Assembly: GCA_017380575.1 (NCBI GenBank)
Contig: JAFODS010000069.1
Span: 42,358 to 106,357 of the forward strand
Length of the DNA stretch: 64,000 bases
Direction of reading: 5' to 3'
Source of the DNA: Clostridia bacterium
GTDB lineage: Bacteria > Bacillota > Clostridia > Oscillospirales > Acutalibacteraceae
Made by a program: the position numbers and the translations under genes. Below, in pieces: positions 42,374 through 48,277 of the stretch. The number at the start of each line of letters is the position of its first letter. The stretch's first letter is position 1. The notes beneath the pieces are model-generated. The model saw only the letters and a program-made list of their open reading frames with translations, did no database searches and was not told the DNA's origin.

Positions 42374-42402
42374 TTGACTTTTATAATTAGTTTTGTTACA
42401 AT
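42374..42402 (+). promoter_or_regulatory. Promoter of the SCP2-aminotransferase-transketolase operon
   Basis: TTGACT (42374-42379) and TACAAT (42397-42402) are 17 bases apart, leaving a leader of about 55 bases before the TTG start. It is the only promoter I can see upstream of the five-gene cluster. Confidence 0.7.
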
Positions 42403-42464
42403 GAAACAGCAAATATGCTTCGTGTAAGTTTAATATGCACACTAAAGCACAAGGAGGAATTACT

Positions 42465-43223
42465 TTGACAGATGCAAAAACATTAGCATATATAAATATG
42501 TATGCTATACTCGGCACACTTGAAAATTTGTGCGAGCTTGACCCCAAGGCAAGTGCTCTCCTCGCTGAACGTAAGCCTATTTCTATCGGCTTCGAAGTTA
42601 AGGACGGCCCTTCTGCTACTCTTACTTTCAAAAACGGCAAGTGCCGTATGGAGCAGGGTATCAGCGATTGCGATATCAAACTCCCCTTCTCATCATGCGA
42701 AAAGTTTAACGGCATGATCGACGGTACTGTTACACCTATCCCCTCAAAGGGATTTATTCACATCAAGTTCCTTCTGGATACTTTCACAAAGTTGACAGAC
42801 ATCCTCACAGCTTACCTTCGTCCGAGCGAAGAGGATCTTCAGGATGAGGAGTTCTTCAGAATCAGCACATCTCTCCTCTTCTATACAATTTCAGTTGCGA
42901 TCTCACAGATCGGTAACCACGACGATATCGGTAAGTTCTCTGCTGACCACATCGTTGACGGTGACATCAAGATGTCTATCAAGGGCGGCCCGGCTTCAAC
43001 AGTACGTGCTAAGAACGGTCACCTTGTTACAATCAAGCAGGCTCCCGAAGAGCCGCGTGCAATTATGGAATTCGGCAGCATGAAGCTTGCTCACGATCTC
43101 TTTGACGGCAAAGTTAACGCTGTTGCTCAGATCGGTGAAGGCACAATTGCTATGCACGGTATGATCAATATGATCGATAACCTCAACCGTATTCTTGACA
43201 GAGTTGCACTTTATCTTGCATAA
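42465..43223 (+). CDS. Tandem SCP2-like (sterol-carrier-protein-fold) protein A
   Basis: This is a 252-residue soluble protein of unknown function. The only well-spaced ribosome site (AAGGAGGAATTAC) points to TTG at 42465; an ATG 30 bases upstream lies before that site. I read two SCP2-like halves. One covers about residues 30-115 (ISIGFEVKDGPSATLTFKNGK...DIKLPFSSCEKFNGMIDG). The other covers about 160-250 (IKMSIKGGPASTVRAKNGHL...IMEFGSMKLAHDLFDGKVNA). Each ends with the typical dG-x-kG strand/helix pattern. SCP2 folds hold hydrophobic ligands, but no ligand can be assigned. It is a distant paralogue of the fifth gene of the operon. No catalytic motif, signal peptide or membrane segment. Confidence 0.7.
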   Translation: MTDAKTLAYINMYAILGTLENLCELDPKASALLAERKPISIGFEVKDGPSATLTFKNGKCRMEQGISDCDIKLPFSSCEKFNGMIDGTVTPIPSKGFIHIKFLLDTFTKLTDILTAYLRPSEEDLQDEEFFRISTSLLFYTISVAISQIGNHDDIGKFSADHIVDGDIKMSIKGGPASTVRAKNGHLVTIKQAPEEPRAIMEFGSMKLAHDLFDGKVNAVAQIGEGTIAMHGMINMIDNLNRILDRVALYLA

Positions 43224-43238
43224 GGGAGGAAATTAACT

Positions 43239-44504
43239 ATGGCTAACATCAAAATTAATCAGTACGACAAAAGCCGTGAGCTTTTCCAGCGTGCTACCAA
43301 AGTAATCCCTTCAGGTGTTTACGGTCACCTCGGCCCTGCTGAAGGTAACTTCATTCCCGTAAGTGCATGGCCTTTCTTCTCTGAGAAGGCAAAGGGTGCA
43401 TATTTCTGGGACGTTGACGGAAACAAGTTTATCGACTATATGTGTGCATACGGTCCCAACATCCTCGGTTACAATGACCCCGACGTTGATAAGGCTGCTA
43501 TGGAGCAGGCTAAGCTCGGTAACTGTACAACATCACCTTCTTACAAGATGGTTGAGCTTGCTGAATTGATGGTTGACACTGTTAAGACAGCTGACTGGGC
43601 ATTCTTCGCAAAGAACGGTAACGATACAACACAGCTTGCTATTATGGCTGCACGTAACGCTACACACAGAAAGAAGATCATCTTCGTTAACGGCTTCTAT
43701 CACGGTGTTTCTGCTGTTGTTCAGAAGATCGACTATCCGGGCGTTCTTCCCGAAGACGTTGCAAACAACCTTTATGTTGACTGGAACGACTTTGAAGCTC
43801 TTGAGAAGCTTGTTGCAGAGAATGAAGGCGAAATTGCTGCTTTCATTTCAACACCTTACCTTCACGGTAACTACTTTGACAATGTAACTCCTGCTGACGG
43901 CTACTGGCAGAAGGTTCGTAAGCTCTGTACAGAGAAGGGCATCGTTCTTATCGTGGACGACGTTCGTTGCGGCTTCCGTCTTGACCTTGCAGGTTCTGAC
44001 GCATACTACGGCTTTGAAGCTGACCTTATCTGCTTCTGTAAAGCTATCGCTAACGGTTGGAACATCTCCTGCCTCTGCGGTAAGGAATTCCTCAGAGATG
44101 CTGTTTCCGGCATGTCTTACACAGGTTCTTACTGGATGAGTGCTGTTCCGTTCGCTGCAGCTATTGCAAACATCAACAAGATGAAGGAACTTAACCTTCC
44201 GGCAGTACTTAAAGAAAAGAGCGTTAAGCTTCTTGACGGTCTTAAGGCTGCAGGTACAAACAACGGTTTTGACCTCGTTTGCTCAGGTGAGCCCGCACTC
44301 TTCTATATGCGAATAGCTAACGACGATTCAATGATGCTTCATCAGGAATGGATTGCTGAGTGTGTTAAGAGAGGTATCTTCTTCTCCAGCCATCACAACC
44401 ACTTCATGAACTATGCAGTATCAGATGCTGACATCAAGCACACAATTGAAGTTGCTGACGAAGCTTTCAAGATTGTTAAGAAGGCTCATCCCGAAGCATT
44501 TTAA
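43239..44504 (+). CDS. Class III PLP aminotransferase (glutamate-1-semialdehyde aminomutase-like)
   Basis: This fold-type I PLP enzyme has 421 residues. The glutamate-1-semialdehyde aminomutase/omega-transaminase pattern is clear. Substrate-side YFWDVDGNKFIDYMCAYGPNILGYNDPDV is followed by AFFAKNGNDTTQLAIMAARN and NGFYHGVSA. The cofactor Asp is in VLIVDDVRCGFRLD (D240), and the Schiff-base lysine is in LICFCKAIANGWNISCLCGK (K268). Automatic pipelines may call it hemL, but no other tetrapyrrole gene is near and it is embedded in a transketolase operon. I infer it aminates the ketone product of the neighbouring transketolase. Spacing to the SCP2-like gene is 15 bases, behind GGGAGG. Confidence 0.85.
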   Translation: MANIKINQYDKSRELFQRATKVIPSGVYGHLGPAEGNFIPVSAWPFFSEKAKGAYFWDVDGNKFIDYMCAYGPNILGYNDPDVDKAAMEQAKLGNCTTSPSYKMVELAELMVDTVKTADWAFFAKNGNDTTQLAIMAARNATHRKKIIFVNGFYHGVSAVVQKIDYPGVLPEDVANNLYVDWNDFEALEKLVAENEGEIAAFISTPYLHGNYFDNVTPADGYWQKVRKLCTEKGIVLIVDDVRCGFRLDLAGSDAYYGFEADLICFCKAIANGWNISCLCGKEFLRDAVSGMSYTGSYWMSAVPFAAAIANINKMKELNLPAVLKEKSVKLLDGLKAAGTNNGFDLVCSGEPALFYMRIANDDSMMLHQEWIAECVKRGIFFSSHHNHFMNYAVSDADIKHTIEVADEAFKIVKKAHPEAF

Positions 44505-44562
44505 TTAAATCGGCTGTATAATATTAAACATTATATAAATATACTTTTAGGAGGAAGCACCT

Positions 44563-45432
44563 ATGGCATTAACCAAAAAGGAATGGTTAGCTCTTGAAAA
44601 GAAAGCTCACGAGCTCCGCAGACTTTGCCTTGATACAACTTTCTGGGCAGGCAGCGGCCACATCGGCGGCGGTATGAGCGTTATGGACATGATGACCATT
44701 CTCTATCACAAGTATCTCAACATTAAAGTTGACGACCCGAACTGGGAAGACAGAGACCGTTTCATCCTTTCAAAAGGACATTCAGGTATTGCTTATGCAC
44801 CTGTTCTTGTTGACAAGGGATTCAACGATCCTGAGCAGCTTAAGACATTCAACCTTACAAACTCAAAGATGGGTATCCACCTTGACTCAAATAAGGTTAT
44901 CGGTGTTGACGCTTCAACAGGTTCTCTCGGTCACGGCCTTTCAATCGCTCTCGGTACAGCTCTTGCAGCTCGTGTACTCGGCAAGGATTACAAGACATAC
45001 TGTATCCTCGGCGACGGTGAATGCGACGAAGGTTCAAACTGGGAAGCAGCTATGGCTATCAACGCTTTCAATGCTACAAACGTTATTTCTTTCGTTGACC
45101 GTAACAAGTGTATGATCGACGGCCGTACAGAAGACGTTATGCCTCTTGAGCCCTTCTGCGACAAGTGGCGTGCATTCGGCTTCCACGTAATCGAAGTTGA
45201 CGGTCACAACCTCAACGAGCTTTCAGAAGCTATCGACTACGCTCTCGGCGAGCCTGACGCACCTGTTATGATCGTTGCAAACACTGTTAAGGGCGAAGGT
45301 ATCGACTTCATGGCTGATGACTATCATTGGCATTACGGCGCTATCGACGCTGAGAAATATGAGCTCGCTAAGAAGAGCCTTGACAATTATTATGAGAAGC
45401 GTAAAGCTCGTGCAGAAAAGGAGGGCATCTAA
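44563..45432 (+). CDS. Transketolase, N-terminal (TPP-binding) subunit
   Basis: This is the first half of a split transketolase, 289 residues. It carries the thiamine-diphosphate/Mg site GDGECDEGSNWEAA (150-163) ending at N181 in VDRNKCMID. The active-site histidines are in WAGSGHIGGGMS (H33), SKGHSGIAYA (H73) and SLGHGLSIAL (H124). The region after IDYALGEPDAPVMIVANTVKGEG is typical of the family. Transketolase moves a two-carbon ketol unit between a ketose donor and an aldehyde acceptor. The next gene encodes the complementary half 2 bases downstream, so the pair should form one heteromeric enzyme. Location suggests a specialised acceptor rather than, or as well as, pentose phosphates. Confidence 0.93.
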   Translation: MALTKKEWLALEKKAHELRRLCLDTTFWAGSGHIGGGMSVMDMMTILYHKYLNIKVDDPNWEDRDRFILSKGHSGIAYAPVLVDKGFNDPEQLKTFNLTNSKMGIHLDSNKVIGVDASTGSLGHGLSIALGTALAARVLGKDYKTYCILGDGECDEGSNWEAAMAINAFNATNVISFVDRNKCMIDGRTEDVMPLEPFCDKWRAFGFHVIEVDGHNLNELSEAIDYALGEPDAPVMIVANTVKGEGIDFMADDYHWHYGAIDAEKYELAKKSLDNYYEKRKARAEKEGI

Positions 45433-45434
45433 TT

Positions 45435-46454
45435 ATGGCAGGCGGACTTACATATACAGCTCTTGAATCCACTGAGCTTTCTACTGCTGAAATTTACGGT
45501 CAGACTCTCGTTGAGCTCGGCCGTGAGCATAAGGAAATCGTTGGTCTTACAGCTGACCTTGGCGGTTCAACAAAGATCGGCGTATTCGGCAAGGAATTCC
45601 CTGACCGTTTCTTCAACGTAGGTATTGCTGAGCAGAACATGTTCGGTATTGCTGCAGGTATGGCAAAGGCAGGTCTTGTTCCTTTCGTTTCAACATTCTC
45701 AATCTTCGCTGCTCTTCGTTCTGCTGACCAGATTCACACAGACATCTGCTATCAGAACGTAAACGCTAAGATTATTGCTACACACTCAGGTACATCTTTC
45801 GGCCAGGCAGGTTCAACTCACCACGCAATCTGCGATATGGCTGTTATCCGTTCAATGCCTAACATCACACTCATCTGCCCTGCAGACGGTGTTGAAACAG
45901 CTGAAGCTGTTCAGGCTGCTTACGATAACTTCGGCCCGTACTACATCCGTATTAACCGCGGTTTTGACCGTGTTCTCTACGGTAAGGATTACGGCAAGGA
46001 GTACAAGTTTGAAGTTGGTAAGGCAATCGAAGTTAACCCCGGTACAGACATTACTGTTATCGCTTGCGGTTCTTGCGTTTACCAGGCTTACCAGGCCGCT
46101 AAGTTCCTTGAGAACGCTGACGGACTTAAGGTTCGCGTTCTTGATATGCATACAATCAAGCCTCTTGATAAGGAAGCTGTTCTTAAGGCTATCCAGGAAA
46201 CACGCCGTATCATCACAGTTGAAGACCACACAATTCTTGGCGGTCTCGGCTCTGCTGTTGCAGAAGTTATGGCTGAAGCAGGTAAGGGTTGTGCATTCAC
46301 ACGTCTTGGTCTTAATGACCAGTTTGCTCCTATCGGCCTTCACGAAGACATTATGTCAATGCTCGGTATCGACTGTAACGGTATCGTAAACGCTGTTCGT
46401 GAAGCTATGAACAAGGACTTCGAAGAAGACGACGATTGGGACGACGAAGTATAA
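45435..46454 (+). CDS. Transketolase, C-terminal subunit
   Basis: This is the second half of the split transketolase, 339 residues. It has the pyrimidine-binding domain with the TPP-activating Glu in FFNVGIAEQNMFGIAAG (E66) and VSTFSIFAALRSADQIHTDICYQ. The segment HSGTSFGQAGSTHHAICDMAVIRSMPNITLICPADGVE follows, and then the C-terminal domain (VIACGSCVYQAYQAAKFL, VEDHTILGGLGSAVAEVM). An acidic tail (EEDDDWDDEV) is unusual for the family and could mediate contact with a partner. It is translationally close-coupled to the N-terminal subunit. DXS is less likely because the two-gene split and motif spacing follow transketolase. Confidence 0.93.
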   Translation: MAGGLTYTALESTELSTAEIYGQTLVELGREHKEIVGLTADLGGSTKIGVFGKEFPDRFFNVGIAEQNMFGIAAGMAKAGLVPFVSTFSIFAALRSADQIHTDICYQNVNAKIIATHSGTSFGQAGSTHHAICDMAVIRSMPNITLICPADGVETAEAVQAAYDNFGPYYIRINRGFDRVLYGKDYGKEYKFEVGKAIEVNPGTDITVIACGSCVYQAYQAAKFLENADGLKVRVLDMHTIKPLDKEAVLKAIQETRRIITVEDHTILGGLGSAVAEVMAEAGKGCAFTRLGLNDQFAPIGLHEDIMSMLGIDCNGIVNAVREAMNKDFEEDDDWDDEV

Positions 46455-46474
46455 TTTGAAAGGGTGGTTTACAA

Positions 46475-47278
46475 ATGGCAAACGAAGTTTTATTGACCAA
46501 TAAAATCTTCCTCAATGCTGCTTTACCTCTCCTGAAGGTTATTGCAAATGACGTTCCGAGCCTTGCTAAGAAGTTCGAGAAGATTCATTGTATTTATCAG
46601 GTAAGTGCTCTTGATCCCTCTGCTCCCGACGGCAAGTATGCTACTCACTTCACAGTTAACAACGGTGAATGGAAAGTATGCGCTGATAAGGTTGCAACAA
46701 ACGCTCACATCGAGCTTGAGTTCAAGAACATGGAAACAATGAACGCATTTTTCAAGGGAAAAATCGGCCCCTCTACTCTTCCTAAGATGAAGGGCGTTGT
46801 TAAAAAGCCTTTGGAGTTTGCAGCATTTATGATGGTTCTCCTCAAAATGTCTTCACTTCTTACAATCACAGAGGCTCCCGCAGATGAGGAAACTCAGAAG
46901 CTCGCAGTTAAGTGCTTCTTCTACCTTCTTTCATCAGGTATCAGCCAGCTCAACAAGCACGGACACGAAGGTGTTCACGATTGGGCATCAAAGAGCCCTG
47001 ACCGTGTTTATGCATGGGCAGTTGACGGTTATCCTGAAGTTTCTGCTTTCCTTCGCGTTAAGGCAGGTAAGACACGTTCAGGCCGCGGCACATACAAGAG
47101 AGCTATGCCGTTCTTCACAATGAGATTTGACTCTCTCCCGAGTGCATTGGGCATTCTTCTTTCAACAGACGATATGCTTGAATCCACAAAGAGAGGTAAG
47201 CTCATCATGGACGGTGCTCCCGAATTCGGTGCACAGATCGGTGATTTCATGATGCAGGTCGGCGATTACGCTAAATAA
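46475..47278 (+). CDS. Tandem SCP2-like protein B
   Basis: A 267-residue soluble protein that mirrors protein A at the other end of the operon. Its first half (residues about 40-130) contains THFTVNNGEWKVCADKVATNAHIELEFKNMETMNAFFKGKI. The central helices FFYLLSSGISQLNKHGHEGV align by eye with LLFYTISVAISQIGNHDDIG in protein A. The second half (YPEVSAFLRVKAGKTRSGRG...FFTMRFDSLPSALGILL) repeats the SCP2 strand pattern. Function unknown; a lipid-carrier or scaffold role is inferred from the fold. It ends the transcription unit just before a strong terminator. Confidence 0.7.
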   Translation: MANEVLLTNKIFLNAALPLLKVIANDVPSLAKKFEKIHCIYQVSALDPSAPDGKYATHFTVNNGEWKVCADKVATNAHIELEFKNMETMNAFFKGKIGPSTLPKMKGVVKKPLEFAAFMMVLLKMSSLLTITEAPADEETQKLAVKCFFYLLSSGISQLNKHGHEGVHDWASKSPDRVYAWAVDGYPEVSAFLRVKAGKTRSGRGTYKRAMPFFTMRFDSLPSALGILLSTDDMLESTKRGKLIMDGAPEFGAQIGDFMMQVGDYAK

Positions 47279-47288
47279 GATAATTTTA

Positions 47289-47320
47289 AACGGTATCGGA
47301 GAAATCCGATACCGTTTTTT
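47289..47320 (+). terminator. Terminator of the SCP2-aminotransferase-transketolase operon
   Basis: AACGGTATCGGA (47289-47300) and TCCGATACCGTT (47305-47316) form a 12-bp perfect stem capped by a GAAA tetraloop and followed by a T-run. It fixes the end of the five-gene unit. Confidence 0.95.
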
Positions 47321-47383: not shown

Positions 47384-48277
47384 ATGAAACATTATGAATC
47401 AATAATCATCGGTCACATTTCACTTGACCATAACACTGACCATCTCGGTAATTCTGCTGACATTATGGGTGGTGCAGTTACATATTCATCTGCTTCTGCA
47501 TACGCTCTCGGTCACAAGGTTGCCGCAGTAACAAAGCTCAATGAAGCTGATGTTTACAGACTCGATTCACTTACAATTCCCAGAGAGGATGTTTACTGCA
47601 TCTTCTCACCTTCTTCATACAATATGGATAATCAGTATTTCACAGCTGATAAAGAGAGAAGAAAGTGTATGTGTATGAGTATGGGTACACCTTTCACTAT
47701 TGAAGATATTCCTAAGGATATCAGCGGTGACATCTACCATTTCGCAGGTCTTGTTTACGGTGACTTCTCAAGCGAAATGATCAAAGAAGCTTCAAAGCTC
47801 GGCAAGGTTGCTGTTGACGTACAGGCTTGTCTTCGCCACGCCAGTGACGATCACACTATGTATTTCGAAGATTGGGCAGACAAAATGGATGTGCTCCCCT
47901 ATATCGATTTCCTCAAAACCGATGCTGCTGAGGCCGAAATCATGACAGGACTTGAGGACAGATATGAGGCAGCAAAGCTTCTTCACTCCTGGGGTGCAAA
48001 GGAAATTATGATAACTCACAATACCGAGGTTATCATTTACGACGGTAAGGATTTCTATTCAGTACCTATCAGAGCAAGAAACCTTTCGGGCCGTACAGGC
48101 AGAGGCGACACAACGTTTGGTGCTTACATAACAGAAAGACTCTCACATTCCATCAAAGACGCTCTGCTTTATGCTACAGCTACCGTTTCAATCAAAATGG
48201 AAACTCCCGGTCCGTACAAAGGAACGAGAGCCGACATTGAAAATTATATTGATGAGCTTTACAGCGATATTAAATAA
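47384..48277 (+). CDS. PfkB-family carbohydrate/nucleoside kinase
   Basis: This is a ribokinase-superfamily kinase, 297 residues. The N-terminal GHISLDH and glycine motif IMGGAVTYSSASAYALGHKV form the substrate lid region. FLKTDAAEAEIMTGL is the usual hinge segment, and GRTGRGDTTFGAYI is the DTxxxGD signature containing the catalytic Asp (D242). The lid sequence is distinct from ribokinase, fructokinase or adenosine kinase, so the substrate is open. It is separately promoted but lies only 105 bases after the transketolase cluster, in the same direction and with similar codon choice. It may phosphorylate a donor sugar or the product of that pathway. Confidence 0.85.
   Translation: MKHYESIIIGHISLDHNTDHLGNSADIMGGAVTYSSASAYALGHKVAAVTKLNEADVYRLDSLTIPREDVYCIFSPSSYNMDNQYFTADKERRKCMCMSMGTPFTIEDIPKDISGDIYHFAGLVYGDFSSEMIKEASKLGKVAVDVQACLRHASDDHTMYFEDWADKMDVLPYIDFLKTDAAEAEIMTGLEDRYEAAKLLHSWGAKEIMITHNTEVIIYDGKDFYSVPIRARNLSGRTGRGDTTFGAYITERLSHSIKDALLYATATVSIKMETPGPYKGTRADIENYIDELYSDIK

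Follow-up and report, generated by a model that had tools for sequence, protein, structure and literature searches.

Five plus-strand genes, in the order SCPA, AT, TKN, TKC and SCPB, lie together in the window (the whole 64,000-nucleotide stretch of DNA analysed). SCPA (42435..43223) encodes a tandem SCP2-fold lipid-carrier-like protein, with its likely true start at the TTG at 42465, preceded by AGGAGG (42452-42457); AT (43239..44504) encodes a class III, FumI-like PLP aminotransferase; TKN (44563..45432) and TKC (45435..46454) encode the ThDP-binding chain and the pyrimidine plus C-terminal chain, respectively, of a split transketolase (TK); and SCPB (46475..47278) encodes a protein related to SCPA. 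Upstream on the same strand is a promoter-like site (TTGACT-17-TACAAT with TG ahead of the second hexamer; 42374..42402) that matched 10/12, such sites being no rarer in shuffled sequence, and downstream, also on the plus strand, is a Rho-independent terminator with a 13-pair stem and a T run (47288..47317).

The five-gene transketolase-aminotransferase operon that an earlier note had recognised here, and whose conservation it had proposed to examine, proved to be a recurrent unit: the complete order was present in 67 of 85 loci, with partial genes at contig ends scored as missing, and 17 of the 18 remaining loci were truncated by contig ends. We rejected the operon as a piece of some larger cluster, since any neighbour family (up to four ORFs on either side) was found in at most 15 of the 85 loci. 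In 12 of them a divergent GSAM-like aminotransferase and a class II aldolase lie upstream of the operon. In two loci (L043 and L055) called ORFs separate AT from TKN; each was seen once, and the two are unlike. Judging by record titles, many of the named loci are of gut origin, from ruminants and other animals, and no plasmid-borne copies of the operon were found by megablast. When 79 ORFs of the source genome (G000) were ranked by effective codon number, TKC came first, rpoC second, TKN third, AT fifth, SCPA sixth and rpoB tenth; because this codon bias is at the rpoB/rpoC level, it suggests a routine, highly expressed role for the operon.

The best PDB match of AT, and its nearest solved relative, was FumI, the Sphingopyxis aminopentol aminotransferase (6hbs; 9.9e-85, versus 3.8e-49 for the best glutamate-1-semialdehyde aminomutase, GSAM), the two being 38% identical across 403 aa. 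A tree of 36 rows placed FumI with all 29 ATs, apart from GSAM, at 100/100 support, the FumI branch being long (2.78) and its exact place inside the group unsure. Moreover, AT scored below the HemL cut-offs (204 bits vs 527 for TIGR00713; 231 vs 398 for PRK00062). Thus on these scores and the tree separation we rejected a GSAM/HemL identity, which the earlier note had named among the findings that would refute its reading. According to PMC2933618, FumI is a catabolic enzyme for which pyruvate accepts the amine at C2 of hydrolysed fumonisin B1. Its site of action is the C2 amine in a long-chain 2-amino-3-ol; it differs from the role proposed below for AT in being catabolic and in having a fumonisin substrate without a C1 hydroxyl. 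FumI-like ATs (36-39% identity; 12 of 1352 records listed) are also frequent on the plasmids of other phyla, and neither of the two contexts examined was sphingolipid-like. We know of no transketolase coupled to FumI.

The operon TK best matched the split-gene TK of Carboxydothermus hydrogenoformans (6yak/6yaj), which has the same two-chain architecture. The catalytic histidines H33, H73 and H106 were present in 83/83 TKN and H257 in 82/83 (one gap), and the catalytic positions E66, H117 and H129 in 78/78 TKC, their equivalence to E. coli residues being an interpretive assignment; with these His/Glu residues and two chains, TKN/TKC qualifies as a transketolase of the split type. A comparison of the acceptor channel, as the earlier note had suggested, gave a divided result (the duplicate G052 copy, L124/L151, and the paralogue of the source genome, L027/L135, each counted once): the R358 equivalent was never Arg (Ala 68, Ser 6 and Thr 4 of 78; A18 in the window), the D469 equivalent was Ala in 78/78 (A125) and the R91 equivalent was Asn in 83/83 (N97), while the S385, H461 and R520 equivalents were each kept in 78/78 TKC. 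Among other TKs, R358 was found in 11/13 (two gaps), D469 in 9/13 and R91 in 8/11; loss of D469 or R91 is therefore not operon-specific, as 4/13 other TKC and 3/11 other TKN are without them. The position of S385, a phosphate contact in E. coli transketolase, is Ser in 78/78 operon TKC, and Ala in the own-genome paralogue and in 10/13 other TKs. Because of this Ser, and with three of the four phosphate-site residues remaining, phosphate binding by the operon TK is not clearly lost.

The source genome encodes, besides the operon TK, a DXS and a second split transketolase that retains R358, D469 and R91. The operon enzyme is thus not a sole transketolase with the full sugar-phosphate ligand set, a combination that the earlier note had set against its own proposal. 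The C. hydrogenoformans TK, for which bulky aldehydes (e.g., phenylacetaldehyde) also serve as substrates together with hydroxypyruvate (PMC7661550), retains R358, D469 and the R91-position Arg, whereas the operon TK lost all three. According to PMC3657141, D469T and D469A improve the E. coli TK on propionaldehyde, for that aldehyde only, and the E. coli TK gives a mainly 3S product with it; D469 variants are reported to be better with aliphatic aldehydes (PMC3657141, PMC5073344).

The predicted structure of SCPA is a tandem SCP2 fold, which confirmed the fold that had been assigned to this protein from its sequence. SCPB gave a profile match to SCPA, and Pfam SCP2 was matched in 2 of its 53 members. 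In PDB profile searches, SCPA returned four chains only (E 0.17-0.97, taken as chance) and SCPB returned none. SCPA differs from UbiJ and other SCP2-domain lipid carriers in being a tandem of two related domains and in belonging to a TK-aminotransferase operon.

Across 295 genomes of the order, SCPA and AT shared a single distribution of 11 genomes, six with the TK module and five without it. All five of the latter have SPT (serine palmitoyltransferase) and KdsR, and in three (G112, G126 and G270) SPT-KdsR adjoins SCPA-AT, in two gene orders. The best PDB match of the G270 SPT copy was S. multivorum SPT (2.7e-119), and KdsR was the best NCBIfam model for two scanned copies beside SCPA-AT, at a score below its cut-off. 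At a threshold of at least 380 bits, SPT-like genes were present in 5/5 SCPA-AT genomes without the TK module, in 36/284 genomes without SCPA and in 0/6 with the TK module, a comparison for which the Fisher test takes no account of phylogeny. The absence of SPT that the earlier note had proposed to look for was observed: there was no match in the source genome, which is 88.8% complete so that the gene could be missed (5 of the 12 genomes searched were positive controls), and none in five further TK-module genomes. Such exclusion between TK and SPT largely follows phylogeny, as one evolutionary event, because the TK-context ATs form one clade (91/98), including those of G052 and of L068, a locus where SCPA-AT stands alone on its contig, and because only G257 has SPT among the own-family genomes listed (at least 25). 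The only TK genome outside the family is G052 (60% complete). At class level, a profile search found SCPA in 3/391 genomes (G000, G036 and, newly, G606), and in G606 SCPA-AT occurs without SPT and without an operon-type TKC. An orphan KdsR-like SDR is present in the source genome (C14:141411-142196; 246.6 bits vs a cut-off of 400), and no KdsR-like gene was found at E<=1e-20 in G209, G237, G265 or G145.

The SPT-KdsR neighbourhood of SCPA-AT in relatives is fresh support for a sphingoid reading, and we consider it a real possibility, a little short of an even chance, that the operon is an SPT-independent route to a long-chain 2-amino-1,3-diol, i.e., a sphingoid-like base. In such a route, the split TK would take a two-carbon ketol off hydroxypyruvate or a ketose phosphate and add it to a long-chain aldehyde that is unphosphorylated and non-alpha-hydroxylated, giving a 1,3-dihydroxy-2-ketone; the FumI-like AT would then turn this ketone, by amination at C2, into the 2-amino-1,3-diol; and the tandem SCP2 proteins, as their fold suggests, would keep hold of the lipid intermediates on their way from one soluble enzyme to the next. 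Carbon for carbon, the skeleton from TK and AT would be that from SPT and KdsR in bacterial sphingolipid synthesis (R-CHOH-CHNH2-CH2OH); SPT, however, joins serine to an acyl thioester with loss of CO2, whereas the operon would add a ketol to an aldehyde and the amine afterwards. Engineered transketolase-transaminase routes give 2-amino-1,3-diols by an identical order of reactions, but are man-made and in vitro whereas the operon is natural and conserved. More tentatively, a natural route of this kind, drawing on fatty aldehydes and a sugar ketol in anaerobic gut Clostridia, might have replaced SPT-KdsR once in this lineage, with AT and the SCP2 carrier kept. Its product may be the 3S (threo) isomer, whereas SPT and KdsR make the 3R base. 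The earlier aminodiol reading thus gains partial support, from the protein families, the TK site, the FumI kinship and the lack of detected SPT; the chemistry of the five-gene set, whether it builds or dismantles a sphingolipid-like head group, is predicted from sequence.

Several points run counter to the biosynthetic route: i) no aldehyde-forming gene was found within the operon, and LuxC, as an aldehyde source, had no match in the source genome; ii) D-erythro-sphinganine is 3R, against which the 3S preference of the E. coli TK with propionaldehyde would count by analogy; iii) the orphan KdsR-like SDR has no role in the scheme; iv) FumI-like ATs are common on plasmids of other phyla, the two contexts examined not being sphingolipid-like; v) the TK/SPT exclusion is largely one evolutionary event, and G606 has SCPA-AT with neither module; vi) the operon TK keeps the S385-position Ser and other phosphate-site residues, and D469 or R91 is also lost in some other TKs; vii) AT is superfluous for sphinganine where SPT and KdsR exist, and hence in 5 of the 11 genomes it must act otherwise, e.g., by deamination.

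Deamination leads to the opposite direction, which we hold to be unlikely yet deserving of weight: the operon would degrade or detoxify sphingoid bases supplied by the diet, the host or Bacteroidota, AT deaminating the base to the 1,3-dihydroxy-2-ketone and TK then cleaving off a two-carbon unit, which a sugar would accept, to leave a fatty aldehyde. This would account for AT beside SPT-KdsR, make an aldehyde source unnecessary and suit both the animal-gut origin of many named loci and the catabolic role of FumI itself (PMC2933618), while Ser at the S385 position would aid binding of a sugar-phosphate acceptor. However, TK could cleave the ketone only with a sugar as acceptor, a use that the missing R358 and D469 equivalents should make less favourable; a transporter or aldehyde dehydrogenase is no constant partner, given neighbour families in at most 15/85 loci; the rpoB/rpoC-level codon bias suggests a routine, highly expressed role; and a fatty aldehyde would probably be of little use to anaerobes.

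Improbable, in our view, is a water-soluble product (a short-chain amino-polyol or an aminosugar precursor) for which the SCP2 proteins are scaffold only: the three retained phosphate-site residues, the FumI-like ATs in non-lipid contexts and the upstream GSAM-like aminotransferase and aldolase in 12/85 loci fit it, but the link of SCPA-AT to SPT-KdsR, the absence of D469 and R91 equivalents from all the examined copies and the presence of an SCP2 protein plus a relative in the operon do not. About as improbable is that AT is no partner of the TK product and acts on a lipid that genomes with SPT share with those that have TK (e.g., by interconverting keto- and amino-diol pools or by a GSAM-like amine shift), TK merely supplying a ketol lipid, for although SCPA-AT is the constant pair that combines with either module, stands alone in L068 and lacks both in G606, TKN begins a median of 56 bases after AT in the operon and the two chemistries match directly.

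Among the matches listed from the open-access literature, none linked a natural transketolase to sphingoid bases, and none on SPT in Clostridia, Firmicutes or Oscillospir- could be attributed to these organisms. To our knowledge, sphingoid base synthesis begins with SPT or a related alpha-oxoamine synthase, and genomes without SPT are usually assumed not to make such bases. If the biosynthetic route is true, the operon would be a natural counterpart of the reaction pair engineered by chemists, with the very D469A change that improved the E. coli TK; if it runs in reverse, it would be a new anaerobic breakdown of sphingoid bases. In the former case, gut Clostridia could be unrecognised producers of host-active long-chain amino-diols.

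Five adjacent plus-strand genes form the operon in the window: SCPA (42435-43223, likely start TTG 42465) and SCPB (46475-47278) encode SCP2-like lipid-carrier-type proteins, AT (43239-44504) a FumI-like class III aminotransferase, and TKN (44563-45432) and TKC (45435-46454) a split transketolase. As the earlier note had described, a promoter-like site (42374-42402) and a strong terminator (47288-47317) frame them. A PfkB-family sugar kinase gene (47384-48277) lies directly past the terminator; a match adjoined the operon at just one further fetched locus (L035). The gene order, whose conservation the earlier note proposed to check, was conserved: the complete operon (five genes in operon order on a single strand, each covering at least 70% of its full length) was present in 67 of 85 loci, and 17 of the other 18 were interrupted by a contig end. 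These loci comprised the best 80 of 569 matches to an AT-alignment search, which thereby over-represent this clade, plus five operon loci from a sample of the order (own genome included); every one of the 80 was an uncultured or MAG entry under the label Clostridia or a relative, and many came from gut samples of ruminants and other animals. The eighteenth locus (L068:9205-11254) carried SCPA-AT alone, with its AT inside the transketolase (TK) clade and no TK genes in 9.7 kb of downstream contig. Upstream of the operon, a divergent class III aminotransferase occurred in 13/85 loci (~2 kb from SCPA in L069-L073, L092, L093, L095, L097, L099 and L107; farther away in L019:15051-17894 and L077) and a class II aldolase in 12/85 (within eight ORFs); the sole pair scanned (L072) was GSAM-like and aldolase-like, each under cut-off.

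The best PDB match of AT was FumI (6hbs, 9.9e-85; 38% identity over 403 residues), followed by glutamate-1-semialdehyde aminomutase (GSAM, 3.8e-49). In a 36-row tree, in which 29 hand-thinned ATs were set against FumI, a pair of GSAM sequences and four GSAM-like neighbours, the long FumI branch grouped with the ATs at 100/100, apart from GSAM. One clade (91/98) held the TK-context ATs, including that of genome G052, plus L068; ATs in the context of serine palmitoyltransferase (SPT) fell outside, and the AT of G606, a genome outside the order, paired as sister with the AT of G041, which has SPT. FumI-like ATs also occurred on plasmids (36-39% identity in the best 12 of 1352 plasmid records), neither of two contexts examined being sphingolipid-like; this wide occurrence cautions against over-reading the FumI kinship.

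Three units recombine: i) SCPA-AT, ii) TKN-TKC-SCPB (the TK module), and iii) SPT with 3-ketosphinganine reductase (KdsR). Across 295 evenly sampled genomes of the order, 11 had SCPA, the identical 11 had AT (E<=1e-60), and six of these had SCPB. The first two units were joined as the operon in G209, G237, G265, G145 and our genome, and lay on separate contigs in G052 (60% complete). SCPA-AT adjoined SPT and a KdsR-like reductase as SCPA-AT-SPT-KdsR in G112 and G126 (one genus) and as SPT-KdsR-SCPA-AT in G270, while in G041 and G036 SPT-KdsR was elsewhere in the genome. The G270 SPT best matched S. multivorum SPT in the PDB (2.7e-119); SerpalmtaseCFB scores were 516 bits (G270) and 536 bits (G112), both under the cut-off of 640, and the two adjoining KdsR-like copies scanned reached 218 and 229 bits (cut-off 400). 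SPT-like proteins (380 bits or more) were present in 41/295 genomes: 5/5 SCPA-AT genomes without the TK module and 36/284 genomes without SCPA (Fisher p = 4.6e-5, kinship ignored), and none of the six TK-module genomes (p = 0.002 for TK vs SPT among the 11 SCPA-AT genomes, kinship ignored). SPT was therefore undetected alongside the TK module, a check that the earlier note had proposed; five of the six TK-module genomes are from one family, in which SPT occurred in 1/25 genomes among the matches listed. Neither SPT nor operon-type TKC was found in G606, which has SCPA-AT. The window corresponds to C11:42358-106357 of our genome. This genome (G000; 2.52 Mb, 79 contigs, 88.8% complete) encodes an orphan KdsR-like SDR (L217:9405-10199, equal to C14:141411-142196), although SPT was undetected there.

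The nearest relative of TKN/TKC was the Carboxydothermus split enzyme. Operon positions were matched to E. coli transketolase, in E. coli numbering, by our own reading of alignments. Among 78 TKC (76 distinct) and 83 TKN (80 distinct) operon-type sequences, the R358 equivalent was Ala (68), Ser (6) or Thr (4), that of D469 Ala (78/78) and that of R91 Asn (83/83), while S385, E411, H461, H473 and R520 were retained (78/78 each). The full set of sugar-phosphate ligands, which would have spoken against the earlier note's reading, is therefore not present: R358, D469 and R91 are replaced, and S385, H461 and R520 are kept. Nor is this the only transketolase of the genome: beyond the operon, Transketolase_N matched on contig C9, a second split transketolase, and on C34, probably DXS judging by length and a weak match. 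The C9 paralogue retained R358, D469 and R91, with Ala at S385; other transketolase-like chains had Arg in 11 (2 gaps), Asp in nine and Ser in three of 13 TKC at R358, D469 and S385, and Arg in eight of 11 TKN at R91. Thus the D469 and R91 losses are total in the operon enzyme yet also found outside it, and loss of phosphate binding is not clear-cut. Non-operon TKC chains of the SPT genomes G112 (L129) and G126 (L130) carry Asn at D469 and Asp at H461. Acceptor-site roles follow PMC7661550, PMC5073344 and PMC3657141: in E. coli, D469 and R91 form a salt bridge and S385 touches phosphate (PMC5073344), and D469T and D469A reportedly raise activity on propionaldehyde only (PMC3657141). The simplest reading of these sequences is a catalytic transketolase whose acceptor site would be remodelled for an aldehyde without an alpha-hydroxyl; it may prefer a long-chain one.

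As the best reading we tentatively propose that TK would join a ketol to an aldehyde and AT would then aminate C2 of the product, giving a sphingoid-type base with the SCP2 proteins as carriers. This skeleton would be that made by SPT plus KdsR, which fits the module exchange. Its weakest points are AT in SPT genomes, the aldehyde source and the direction. LuxC had no match in our genome; plasmalogen breakdown is a possible source. The same enzymes run in reverse would break sphingoids down, which we consider less likely; FumI takes the amine at C2 from hydrolysed fumonisin B1 and passes it to pyruvate (PMC2933618). For synthesis, stereochemistry is informative: D-erythro-sphinganine is 3R and fumonisin B1 3S. 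As wild-type E. coli TK yields mostly 3S product from propionaldehyde (58% e.e.; PMC3657141), the operon product may by analogy be the threo isomer.

The enzyme families are already known, as is the TK-transaminase reaction pair from biocatalysis; no natural operon of such make-up was found among the open-access papers listed. Among 79 ORFs of at least 150 aa (104 kb of our genome: the window, L027 and L217; median effective codon number 44.3), TKC ranked 1, TKN 3, AT 5, SCPA 6 and SCPB 29, and the Pfam-identified rpoC and rpoB 2 and 10. Across loci this number was under the neighbours' median for AT (50/53), TKN (50/52), TKC (44/50), SCPA (34/52) and SCPB (36/49), suggesting a routine pathway with high expression, although the SCP2 proteins show this less clearly. 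SPT and KdsR often pair up on their own, with KdsR adjoining SPT in 17/20 loci fetched from the 36 SCPA-less genomes. In G100 (L188:5054-10692) the pair's neighbours are one short ACP-like ORF and two more that resemble, from their first residues, acyl-CoA/AMP ligases; a similar arrangement is described in Rhodobacteria (PMC9386255). The operon is a candidate system of sphingoid base metabolism, and the widespread, mostly KdsR-paired SPT-like genes of this Clostridia order suggest sphingolipid synthesis in these anaerobes.
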